A stretch of 64,000 bases of DNA, from assembly GCF_009758015.1 (NCBI RefSeq), contig NZ_WSEL01000003.1, positions 1,116,001 to 1,180,000 on the forward strand, in the 5' to 3' direction. Position 1 is the stretch's first letter. Each line of letters begins with the position of its first letter. The translations under genes and the position numbers were made by a program. Below the pieces are notes generated by a model, which was not told where the DNA came from, searched no databases, and saw only the letters and a program-made list of their open reading frames with translations. This document shows positions 12,821 to 28,253 of this stretch, in pieces. The DNA comes from Ramlibacter pinisoli. GTDB taxonomy: Bacteria > Pseudomonadota > Gammaproteobacteria > Burkholderiales > Burkholderiaceae_C.

Positions 12821-14623
12821 TCAGCGCGGCGCGTATTCCGGCACCTGGGCGCGCAGCCACTCGCGCAGGGCGCGCTCGCCGGGCGCCGGGCCGGCTTCCT
12901 CGATCCAGCGCGCCACCGCGTCCACGTCGGGCGGGCTGGCAGCGCCCTTGGCCACCCGCAGCTTGGCGTGCGGCGTCGGCTCCGTGGTCTCGTCGTCCGC
13001 CAGCAGTTCCTCGAACAGCTTCTCGCCCGGCCGCAAGCCGGTGTACGTGATCGGGATCTCCTGCTCGGTGTGGCCCGACAGGCGGATCAGCAGGCGCGCC
13101 AGTTCGACGATGCGCACCGGTTCGCCCATGTCGAGCACGAAGATCTGGCCCGAGCGGCCCATCAGCCCGGCCTGCAGCACCAGCTGCGCGGCTTCGGGGA
13201 TGGTCATGAAGTAGCGCACGATCTCGGGATGCGTGACGGTGACTGGGCCGCCCTGCGCGATCTGGGTCGTGAACAGCGGCACGACCGAACCGCTGGACCC
13301 CAGCACGTTGCCGAACCGCACCGACACGAACCGCGTGTCCGGGTAGCCGGCCGCCACGCCCTGCACCATCAGCTCGGCCAGCCGCTTGCTCGCCCCCATG
13401 ACGTTGGTCGGGTTCACCGCCTTGTCGGTGGAGATCATCACGAAGCGCCGGGCGCCGCACTGCCCCGCCACCCGCGCCGCATTGAGCGTGCCGACCACGT
13501 TGGTGCGCAGCGCCTCCACCTCGTTCAGCTGCTCCATCAGGGGCACGTGCTTGTAGGCGGCGGCGTGGAACACCACGGCTGGCCGGTGCTCGCGCGCGAT
13601 CGCCTCCAGCCGCTGCGGCTCGCGCACGTTGGCGGTGTAGTACAGGCCGCGCATCTGCGGATGGCTGGCCCGCAGTTCCTGTTCGAGCTGGTAGATGGCG
13701 TACTCGGACACGTCGACGCACACCAGCCTGGCCGCGCCGAAGCGGGCGATCTGCCGGCACAGCTCCGACCCGATGGAGCCGCCGGCGCCGGTGACCAGCA
13801 CGGCCTGGCCCGAGAGCAGGTCGGCCAGGCCGCCGACGTCCAGGTCGACCGGCGCACGGCCGAGCAGGTCCTCGAGTTCCACCTTGCGCGGACCGCTGCG
13901 CTCGGTCTTGAGCCACTCGTCGGGACGCGGCATGGTGAGCAACGTCACCCCGGCCTCGGTGGCGCCGAGCAGCGCGGCGCGCCGCTCGGGCGAGCCGGGC
14001 GGGCTGGCCACCAGCGCGGTCTTCGCCTCTTCCTCGACACTGGCCCGCTGCATGGCGTCGATGCCACCGACCACCGGCACGTCCTGGATCGAGCGCCCCA
14101 CCTCGGCCGGGATCGGGCTGAGGATGCCGACCGGCAGCCACTGCTGCGAGCCTTTCAGGGCGCGCAGGGCATCGGCCGCATCCTGCAGCGAGCCGATCAC
14201 CAGCAGGCGGCGTGCCCCGGTGACGGCCAGCCGCCGCTCAGCGAGGGTGCGCCAGGCGGCGCGCGCCGCGCCCAGCAGCACCAGGGCGATCAGCGGCTGC
14301 AGCAGCAGCACCGAGCGCGGGAAGAACGGCAGCCGCAGCGCCATCACGACCGCGCCGGTGAGCGCCGCGCCCAGGGTGATGCCCTGCACCAGCTGGCGCA
14401 GCTCCGGCATGCCGATGTAGGTCCAGACATGGCGCCAGACGCGGGTGACCAGGAAGGCGGCGGCATAGGCGAACACGCACCAGGGACTGGCCTCGAGCGC
14501 GAGCTCGGTGAACTCGTCCGGGATGTCGAGGTTGAAGCGCAGCCAGAACGCGACCCACCAGGCCAGCAGCACCAGGCCCAGGTCGACGGCGCACAGGGAC
14601 AGGACGCGCCTAGACCAGCGCAT
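12821..14623 (-). CDS. Membrane-bound UDP-GlcNAc 4,6-dehydratase (WbpM/PglF/CapD-like)
   Basis: This 600-residue protein starts with about four transmembrane helices (residues 1-110). A linker Rossmann domain follows, then the catalytic short-chain dehydrogenase domain with TGAGGSIGSELC near 277-288. The active site reads STDKAVNPTNVMGASK (about 396-412), the SMK form in which Met replaces the usual Tyr, as in WbpM and PglF. These enzymes convert UDP-GlcNAc to the 4-keto-6-deoxy sugar. As the last gene of the cluster, directly after the aminotransferase, it most likely supplies that enzyme. The ATG at 14623 overlaps the previous gene by 14 nt. Confidence 0.9.
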   Translation of the reverse strand: MRWSRRVLSLCAVDLGLVLLAWWVAFWLRFNLDIPDEFTELALEASPWCVFAYAAAFLVTRVWRHVWTYIGMPELRQLVQGITLGAALTGAVVMALRLPFFPRSVLLLQPLIALVLLGAARAAWRTLAERRLAVTGARRLLVIGSLQDAADALRALKGSQQWLPVGILSPIPAEVGRSIQDVPVVGGIDAMQRASVEEEAKTALVASPPGSPERRAALLGATEAGVTLLTMPRPDEWLKTERSGPRKVELEDLLGRAPVDLDVGGLADLLSGQAVLVTGAGGSIGSELCRQIARFGAARLVCVDVSEYAIYQLEQELRASHPQMRGLYYTANVREPQRLEAIAREHRPAVVFHAAAYKHVPLMEQLNEVEALRTNVVGTLNAARVAGQCGARRFVMISTDKAVNPTNVMGASKRLAELMVQGVAAGYPDTRFVSVRFGNVLGSSGSVVPLFTTQIAQGGPVTVTHPEIVRYFMTIPEAAQLVLQAGLMGRSGQIFVLDMGEPVRIVELARLLIRLSGHTEQEIPITYTGLRPGEKLFEELLADDETTEPTPHAKLRVAKGAASPPDVDAVARWIEEAGPAPGERALREWLRAQVPEYAPR

Positions 14624-26792: not shown

Positions 26793-28253
26793 TTATCGCC
26801 GCAGGGCTTCGCGCACATCGCCGCTGCGCCACGCCGCCAGCAGCAGGACGAGCGCGGCACCGACGGCGCCGGCCGCCAGTTGCGCGGCCCAGCCCGGCGA
26901 CGGCAGGCCGTGGCCCAGGAGCGCGGCGACGCCCGCGGCGAGGGTCAGGCCGGCGCCGCCCCAGACCAGCGTCTCCCACGGCAGCCAGCGACGGCACTCG
27001 GGCCCGATCGCCAGCAGGCAGACGGCCGCGACCAGCGCCTGGCAGGCGTTCAGCAGGTGCATCAGCCGCAGGCCGTCGTTCCAGCCCGCCGCCGAGGCGC
27101 CCAGGACCGCCAGCAGCGCCAGGCCATAGCCGACCACCGCCGGCGCCATCCGCCGGCGCGTCGCCAGCACCGTGAGGGCGACCGCCGTCAGCGCCTGCGG
27201 CAGCAGGCCCCAGGCGCCGGCCATACCCCAGCGGGCGACCTGCTCCAGCGCCTCGGGCGTCATGCGTCCCCAGCCAAACAGCAGCCGGGCCAGGGCCGGC
27301 CCTGCCAGCAGCAGCCCCGCTGCCGCCGCACAGGCCAGCGTCCAGGCCAGCGCAAAGGCCCGCCGCACCGGCGCGCCGTCGGTCCCGCCCTCCCCCAGCG
27401 CCCGGGTGATGGCGGGAAACGCCAGCGAGGCCACCAGCTGGATCGCCAGGATCAGCGGCAGCTCCACCAGCTTCCAGGCGTAGCTGAAGACCGCCAGCGC
27501 CCCTTCGCCGGCCTGCGACGCGACCGAGCGCGCCACGAAGGGCAGCGCCAGCGGCAGCCCCGCGCTGAGCCAGGCCCAGGCCCAGACGGGCAGCGTGGGC
27601 CAGTCGATCCGGGCGGCGGCCCCGGAGGGCACCGCGGGCAGCCGCCGCCCCAGCCAGCGCAGCCGGCCCGCCATGGCGATCACCAGGCCGATCCCCAGCA
27701 CCGTGACCGGGGCACCGGCATGGGCGCCGGCCACCAGGATGGTGGCCACCAGCAGGCCGTTGACGACCAGGTTGGCGCCGTACATGCCGACGAAGTCGCG
27801 CTCGTGCTGCAGCCGCGTCGCCCACAGGGCGGCCAGCAGGGCGGCAGGAATCGCCACCGCGCTCCACACCAGGCCGCCGGCGGCGATGCCACGCAGGTGC
27901 GACGGGATGCCGGCCCCCAGCGCCGCCAGGACGGCGTCGCGCGCCAGCGCCAGCAGCAGCGCCAGCACGATGCCCAGCACCAGGGCCCAGGTCGCGACCC
28001 GCCGTTGCAGCGCCGCAACCTGCTGCGGCGGCTGGCCGCCCCAGGCCGGCAGCAGCACATAGGCGAGCGCGCCGCTGGCGACCACCGAGGCCAGCCAGTC
28101 CGGCAGGGTGAGCACCAGGACCGCGACGTCCGCCAGGCCGCCACTGCCGAAGGCGGCCGCCTGGGCCGATTCGCGCACGACGCCCAGCAGCCGGCTGGCC
28201 AGCAGCAGGGCCAGGGACAGGGCGCCGGCGCGGAGGAACATGCGGGCGATCAT
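26793..28253 (-). CDS. MurJ/MviN-family lipid-linked glycan flippase
   Basis: The 486-residue protein is almost entirely hydrophobic, with about 13-14 predicted transmembrane helices. Its N-terminal region ([21 protein letters not shown]) matches MurJ/MviN. Heading a glycan cluster rather than a peptidoglycan locus, it probably flips the undecaprenyl-linked glycan made by this cluster, taking the place of Wzx. It is the first gene of the minus-strand cluster and is divergent from lysS across a 74-nt gap that must hold both promoters. An in-frame ATG at 28241 (MFLRAG) is an alternative start. Confidence 0.85.

Follow-up and report, generated by a model that had tools for sequence, protein, structure and literature searches.

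The 64,000-nucleotide stretch of the Ramlibacter pinisoli genome analysed here (contig NZ_WSEL01000003.1, positions 1,116,001 to 1,180,000; hereafter the window) contains an operon-like run of 14 co-oriented minus-strand genes, read from 28253 to 12821 (Table 1). Their order, 5' to 3', is MurJ-like flippase, HpaI-type aldolase (HpaI), polyprenyl-phosphate sugar-1-phosphate transferase (PGT), AsnB-type amidotransferase (AsnB), a GT-B-fold protein designated GTx, WbuX, HisF, HisH, NeuA, NeuB, NeuC, NeuD, a CBS-domain aminotransferase (CBS-AT) and a 4,6-dehydratase (DH). Overlaps of 1–14 bases occur at nine of the 13 junctions; at three others the genes stand 1, 48 and 66 bases apart, and the aldolase/flippase junction hinges on the uncertain start of HpaI, which alignment points to near 26782. 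The 14 genes are presumably co-transcribed. An earlier note on this DNA had described a run of nine genes, from WbuX to DH, encoding within about 9.6 kb a uridine diphosphate (UDP)-route legionaminate pathway with an acetamidino-forming module. All nine are present, on the minus strand and in one direction, and they span 12821–22387 (9.6 kb), but the run holds 14 genes; the new point is the five further co-oriented genes at 22436–28253, unnamed in that note, and not the legionaminate cluster itself. Pfam and NCBIfam searches support the names given earlier and all the others except that of GTx, which had no Pfam or NCBIfam match at E<=0.001. From this gene content, the operon probably directs the assembly and export of a lipid-linked glycan unit bearing a sugar derived from CMP-Leg5Am7Ac, the cytidine monophosphate (CMP)-activated 5-acetamidino form of legionaminate. 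Leg5Am7Ac, an unusual charged sugar of the cell surface, has been described before in Legionella.

Table 1. Genes of the 14-gene run, in order of transcription
Product	Position	Strand	Profile match
MurJ/MVF-family flippase, 486 aa, first gene	26793..28253	-	PF03023 63.7 bits
HpaI: HpcH/HpaI-type class II pyruvate aldolase	25976..26815	-	PF03328 35.8 bits
PGT: small polyprenyl-phosphate sugar-1-phosphate transferase, 184 aa	25425..25979	-	PF02397 215 bits
AsnB-type glutamine-dependent amidotransferase, 597 aa	23632..25425	-	PF00733 + GATase_7
GTx: GT-B-fold protein, proposed CMP-ulosonate transferase	22436..23635	-	
WbuX/PtmG-type N-acetyl sugar amidotransferase	21071..22387	-	TIGR03573 388 bits, cut-off 203
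HisF-like (WbuZ), putative ammonia-channelling partner	20234..21004	-	WbuZ 265.7, HisF 257 bits
HisH-like glutaminase	19599..20237	-	TIGR01855 198.8 bits, cut-off 105.4
NeuA/LegF-type CMP-nonulosonate cytidylyltransferase	18880..19602	-	PF02348 77 bits
NeuB/LegI nonulosonate synthase	17864..18883	-	PF03102 284 bits
NeuC/LegG hydrolysing 2-epimerase	16734..17867	-	TIGR03568 (NeuC_NnaA) 368 bits, cut-off 236
NeuD/PglD N-acetyltransferase	16109..16732	-	TIGR03570 172 bits, cut-off 160.8
CBS-domain + LegC/DegT aminotransferase (PglE role)	14610..16112	-	PF01041 326.6, PF00571 47.4 bits
DH: membrane-type UDP-GlcNAc 4,6-dehydratase (PglF/WbpM type), last gene	12821..14623	-	PF02719 (Polysacc_synt_2) 376 bits

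By profile searches the UDP-route set of DH, aminotransferase, acetyltransferase, NeuC, NeuB and NeuA is complete. DH carries an MGASK motif, in agreement with the "SMK" type named previously, which presumably occupies the place of the short-chain dehydrogenase YxxxK. The aminotransferase scores 364 bits against TIGR04181 (LegC; cut-off 420). It bears an N-terminal CBS domain that had gone unmentioned; in the route through guanosine diphosphate (GDP)-linked intermediates, the CBS domain sits on the nucleotidyltransferase. Such intermediates, with flagellin as acceptor, characterize the Campylobacter jejuni ptm pathway and distinguish it from the window. The best NCBIfam model for NeuA is PseF (138 bits, under the cut-off of 206), and its best solved chain is a CMP-N-acetylneuraminate synthetase.

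NeuB is present in a single copy in the genome. In a tree of 90 NeuB rows, the window and five Legionella rows fall in the starred 50-row set with Escherichia coli K1 outside, and in the NeuC tree (45 of 80 rows) the window again lies with Legionella in the starred set, E. coli K1 outside. Pairwise identities run the same way: NeuB is 47.3% and 45.8% identical to two Legionella loci and 37.7% to K1, and NeuC 45.6% and 44.0% to Legionella loci and 29.1% to K1. The phylogenies called for in the earlier note thus group both enzymes with Legionella, and the placement in a sialic-acid clade that would have spoken against it is absent, since the starred sets hold Legionella and not K1. Pseudaminate-type NeuB proteins are marked by Phe (SFE) instead of Gly at position 132 of nmNeuB (PMC7371886), and the window's motif is SGE, with Gly at that position. 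We therefore rejected sialate and pseudaminate readings of these genes on the trees, the SGE motif and the gene content. That the cluster makes ordinary sialic acid (N-acetylneuraminate), its other genes serving another sugar, is in our estimate highly improbable: the NeuB and NeuC families do include sialate enzymes, but a LegC-type aminotransferase and a PglD-type acetyltransferase stand between NeuC and the dehydratase, and the trees, the presence of WbuX, HisH and HisF and the synteny with Legionella all argue against it.

This synteny is close. The Legionella pneumophila lipopolysaccharide (LPS) locus carries ORF21 (aminotransferase), ORF22 (neuD), ORF23 (neuC), ORF24 (neuB), ORF25 (neuA) and ORF28 (a ptmG homologue), described as the route to CMP-Leg5Am7Ac (PMC3766260); the window has the same content and order from aminotransferase to WbuX/ptmG. 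HisH and HisF are placed between NeuA and WbuX in the window, as in four of the five Legionella-genus loci that we retrieved, which show its order WbuX-HisF-HisH-NeuA-NeuB-NeuC-NeuD-aminotransferase; the fifth (L035) has no NeuA match. The dehydratase lies outside the LPS locus in L. pneumophila (PMC3766260) and within the operon in the window, and the fetched stretches of the five Legionella-genus loci contain no HpaI, PGT, AsnB, GTx or MurJ matches. WbuX itself shares 76% identity with the L. pneumophila protein and scores 806 bits against the crystal structure of that protein (8WEX). N-acetyl sugar amidotransferases have a CxxC...CxxC zinc motif and an SGGxDS PP-loop (PMC10607449), and in an alignment of 14 WbuX sequences C35, C38, C70 and C73 and the PP-loop SGGKDS (S112-S117) are invariant. 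The HisF-like protein scores under the cut-offs of both WbuZ (299.7) and HisF (294.6). It is additional to two stronger His_biosynth matches that lie together on another contig, so that WbuX has its own adjoining HisH/HisF partners separate from the histidine biosynthesis genes. In C. jejuni, PtmG converts CMP-Leg5Ac7Ac to CMP-Leg5Am7Ac (PMC3766260), and the same conversion is proposed for WbuX. The assignment of UDP-route legionaminate with an acetamidino module is backed by the Legionella gene order, the two WbuX comparisons and the trees. As to the position of the amidino group, left by the earlier note at either 5 or 7, the Legionella and Campylobacter precedent favours 5.

To trace the distribution of the module, the WbuX alignment was scanned over named genomes; of the 493 relatives found, the top 80, with identities of 71% or higher, were retained, 56 of them long-flank loci with >9 kb upstream and 8 kb downstream. 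HisF, HisH, NeuB and NeuC accompany WbuX in 52 of the 56, and NeuB alone in 53. Nine of the 80 loci (L003-L009, L014 and L017) have the identical 14-gene order, L003 being that of Ramlibacter paludis, and L015 has it with insertions. The union of all parts in one cluster, which had been thought unusual, is therefore typical of WbuX loci, although the cluster is uncommon in the window's family, WbuX being found at E<=1e-80 in 17 of 299 sampled genomes. Amidino-legionaminate, typical of Legionella LPS, is thus probably made by many environmental bacteria. The same counts bear on the proposal that the acetamidino module acts on a sugar other than legionaminate, as WbpG does on a mannuronic acid derivative and WbuX on N-acetylfucosamine. 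The WbuX family has such members (PMC10607449); the NeuB count in the long-flank loci of this subfamily and the nearest named relatives, which include the Legionella protein, leave the proposal very improbable.

The chemistry of the pathway is established in Legionella and Campylobacter; for the window we infer the substrate specificities of the enzymes and the final glycan. DH would convert UDP-GlcNAc to the 4-keto-6-deoxy sugar, CBS-AT would turn this into the UDP-4-amino sugar and NeuD would yield UDP-diacetylbacillosamine, from which NeuC would make 2,4-diacetamido-2,4,6-trideoxymannose. NeuB, with phosphoenolpyruvate, would produce Leg5Ac7Ac, to be activated by NeuA as CMP-Leg5Ac7Ac. HisH would free ammonia from glutamine and HisF channel it to WbuX, which with ATP would change the 5-N-acetyl to a 5-acetamidino group, giving CMP-Leg5Am7Ac as the likely product. 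PGT would put a first sugar on the carrier, GTx add the CMP-sugar and the MurJ-like protein flip the unit. The latter scores 66.2 bits against the NCBIfam MurJ model (cut-off 235.55), so far under it that we regard the protein as a MurJ-like paralogue and not MurJ; it is probably a flippase substituting for Wzx.

Several points count against the proposed legionaminate-bearing glycan. NeuB scores 396.8 bits against NCBIfam NeuB, just under the cut-off of 399.65, and the profile models used do not separate legionaminate from sialate synthases. Both trees contain a single sialate reference, E. coli K1, on a long branch, and that of NeuC uses 45 of 80 rows with bootstrap not settled. The best PDB matches of NeuC, with similar scores, are human GNE and Acinetobacter baumannii NeuC. 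NeuB position 184 is Tyr in the legionaminate set of PMC7371886 and Ser in the window; being Ser in four Legionella loci too, we discarded it as uninformative. A promoter scan of the operon revealed no sigma-70-like promoter, and promoter and terminator predictions showed no excess over shuffles. Finally, the operon contains no polymerase; Wzy_C was matched five times in other parts of the genome. The product could accordingly be a polymer, a single unit or a protein-linked glycan.

The genes around the legionaminate cassette form a recurring frame, MurJ-HpaI-PGT-AsnB-GTx-[cassette]-DH, in which the ulosonate cassette differs between related genomes. HpaI was used as a bait, independent of WbuX, to trace it. 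HpaI was found in 29 of 299 genomes of the window's family, 5 of 398 of a phylum sample, 2 of 119 and 7 of 198 genomes of the families of G415 and G395, respectively, and 5 of 375 in the order around G363, a centre chosen by rpoB comparison of 80 genomes. Neighbourhoods were compared in 27 of the 29 same-family genomes (the window's own genome and G055 were left out): PGT accompanies HpaI in 26, AsnB in 25 (two with a different AsnB type), the MurJ-like gene in 24 and GTx in 22. In nine HpaI loci outside the family, AsnB and PGT each adjoin in four. All five loci of the order sample have DH and PGT within 10 kb, four have AsnB within 10 kb, four GTx and three the MurJ-like gene. Among the long-flank WbuX loci, AsnB at >=400 bits occurs in 13 of 17 with HpaI vs 1 of 39 without it.

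In the window and L003-L009 the cassette is for amidino-legionaminate. G272, a genome of the same genus, has at locus L198 a cassette for pseudaminate, with PseB (523 bits), PseC (513), PseF (295) and PseI (477) all above their cut-offs and PseG at 115 bits, under its cut-off of 154. L199 has PseB and PseC above cut-off together with a second WbuX type, and L160-L162 have a legionaminate-type cassette without WbuX. Between L198 and the window the frame proteins are well conserved (AsnB 80%, DH 78%, PGT 75%, HpaI 70% identity) and GTx only at 37%; in L003-L009 and L014 GTx is 62-74% identical to that of the window. GTx thus follows the cassette, and may represent a family of CMP-ulosonate transferases not covered by Pfam. 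Other combinations occur farther afield. In Moritella sp. 24 (L191, L195), DH, MurJ-like, HpaI, PGT and AsnB lie side by side, adjoining NeuA-NeuB-NeuC; no LegC- or NeuD-type match was found there, and a second, pseudaminate-like set follows. In G1156 (L194), HpaI, PGT, AsnB, GTx and DH are accompanied by a KdsB-type cytidylyltransferase, an HMGL-type aldolase and an HAD phosphatase in place of NeuB/NeuC, which suggests another CMP-ulosonate; NeuB has no match in 30 kb. On the Pseudohalocynthiibacter plasmid pRR4-35_2 (L184), 13 of the 14 genes are present and differently ordered, with no dehydratase in the stretch. This plasmid is typed as conjugative and is a possible route of spread for the cluster genes.

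There are signs that DH belongs with the frame and not with the legionaminate pathway alone. A homologue at least 55% identical is present in 25 of 28 family genomes with HpaI, within 30 kb of it in 22, vs 3 of 42 without HpaI (4 of 42 with a partial match). As the set without HpaI was not drawn at random, comprising the genomes with low handle numbers and G198, and related genomes are not independent of one another, a Fisher value for this association is a guide only. One of the three exceptions, G019, has WbuX and GTx; its genome is in fragments, so that HpaI may be missing from the assembly. In L198, DH is retained although the pseudaminate cassette, which uses its own PseB, does not need it. 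Together with the co-occurrence, the gene contents of L198, Moritella sp. 24 and L194 suggest that DH may also feed the aldolase.

The AlphaFold2 model of HpaI (pLDDT 91.5) gave YfaU and HpaI-pyruvate complexes as best Foldseek matches and agrees with the HpcH/HpaI class II fold. VIA-align listed pyruvate kinases first; as a functional clue these were dismissed, the barrel alone being shared. Alignment with YfaU shows its Asp, Arg, Glu and second Asp retained in HpaI, and three of the aligned residues, R79, E131 and D157, are invariant in 14 sequences; we take the Arg to bind pyruvate and the Glu and Asp to bind metal. The His of the D-x-E-H motif, presumably catalytic in this family, is replaced by Arg (D-L-E-R) at a position variable in the 14 sequences. 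The protein models as a metal-dependent pyruvate aldolase.

As an extension of the proposed glycan, we tentatively suggest that the first sugar is shewanellose-like, with the frame supplying candidate genes for a C4-branched sugar. Shewanellose is 2-acetamido-2,6-dideoxy-4-C-(3'-carboxamide-2',2'-dihydroxypropyl)-galactose and is reported from Shewanella putrefaciens A6 together with a derivative of 8-epilegionaminate (PMC4052302). DH would supply UDP-2-acetamido-2,6-dideoxy-4-hexulose, HpaI would add pyruvate at the C4 ketone of this UDP-4-keto sugar, AsnB would amidate the new carboxylate and PGT would load the branched sugar onto lipid; pyruvate addition followed by amidation would yield the shewanellose side chain. 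The fit of the HpaI model to metal-dependent pyruvate aldolases, with its four retained residues, favours the proposal, as do the association of AsnB and PGT with HpaI in the same-family loci, that of AsnB in the long-flank loci, that of DH across the family and in L198 despite PseB, and the neighbourhoods of the order sample and Moritella sp. 24. The A6 polysaccharide likewise pairs a legionaminate-type sugar with one that DH, HpaI and AsnB could make, although the comparison is one of chemistry only, from a review (PMC4052302), and its 8-epi configuration is unlike the product proposed for the window.

Against the suggestion, none of the loci showing the gene set comes from a genome known to be Shewanella, and HpaI has Arg in place of its presumed catalytic His. 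No AsnB accompanies HpaI in L108, L163, L192, L109, L164, L170, L171 and L172, and five loci (L012, L016, L018, L149 and L150) have the other AsnB type. L167, L168 and L184 have HpaI and AsnB with no DH match in the stretch; G260 has no DH in the genome, G212 and G280 have homologues of only 43% and 42%, and DH lies 2.5 Mb from HpaI in G244 and on another contig in G055 and G165. In addition, the ketone acceptance of aldolases is called limited, and the C4-branched sugar route described is thiamine diphosphate (ThDP)-dependent (PMC12247030). YerE-type branching, which gives yersiniose and its relatives, likewise uses pyruvate to form a C-C bond at the 4-keto carbon of a nucleotide sugar (PMC12247030). 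YerE-type enzymes depend on ThDP, whereas no ThDP-dependent decarboxylase was matched among the 14 genes, and the proposed metal-dependent aldolase would, unlike YerE, retain the carboxylate. Our literature searches gave no account of shewanellose biosynthesis, the name itself turning up in one paper. They gave no paper mentioning aldolase and asparagine synthase along with nonulosonic acid, polysaccharide and gene cluster, and no match for S. putrefaciens with 8-epilegionaminic acid and polysaccharide; among the titles listed on branched-chain sugars, none pointed to an aldolase route to a sugar of bacterial glycans.

In Moritella sp. 24 (L191) and in L192, nucleotide-sugar dehydrogenases in the fetched stretches would allow a uronic acid, and lend some weight to a different explanation, in which neither HpaI nor AsnB takes part in C4 branching: AsnB would amidate a uronic acid formed by enzymes encoded elsewhere, and HpaI would make an acyl group (e.g. 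malyl) or handle a keto acid. Uronamides and malyl groups are present in marine bacterial polysaccharides (PMC3210612). By profile searches, however, the 14 genes include no nucleotide-sugar dehydrogenase, CoA ligase or further acyltransferase; L192 has the dehydrogenase but no AsnB match, and the association with DH is left unexplained. We consider this explanation unlikely. The shewanellose-type proposal stands somewhat higher, while still falling short of probable: the frame of DH, HpaI, AsnB, PGT and the MurJ-like protein may make a shewanellose-type sugar without ThDP, and exchangeable ulosonate cassettes, each with its matching GTx, would plug into this frame to give surface-glycan variants in several phyla. 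If true, a pyruvate aldolase acting on the ketone of a nucleotide sugar would possibly be new enzyme chemistry.

Some variants of these loci were also observed. In L108 (9955-13508) and L163, the neighbours of HpaI are two proteins identified by eye as resembling a pyridoxal phosphate (PLP) decarboxylase and a class IV aminotransferase; they could convert a pyruvate-derived keto acid to an aminoethyl branch. In L012 (2434-8377; Acidovorax benzenivorans), L016, L018, L149 and L150, the place of the frame AsnB is taken by the glycine-cleavage P-proteins GcvPA and GcvPB together with a different AsnB and a type III glutamine synthetase. A Gfo/Idh/MocA oxidoreductase and a PtmA-like short-chain dehydrogenase/reductase, absent in the window, flank NeuA in L012 (12660-15171) and L049 (12762-15264), and are candidates for making an epimer, e.g. 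the 8-epi form.

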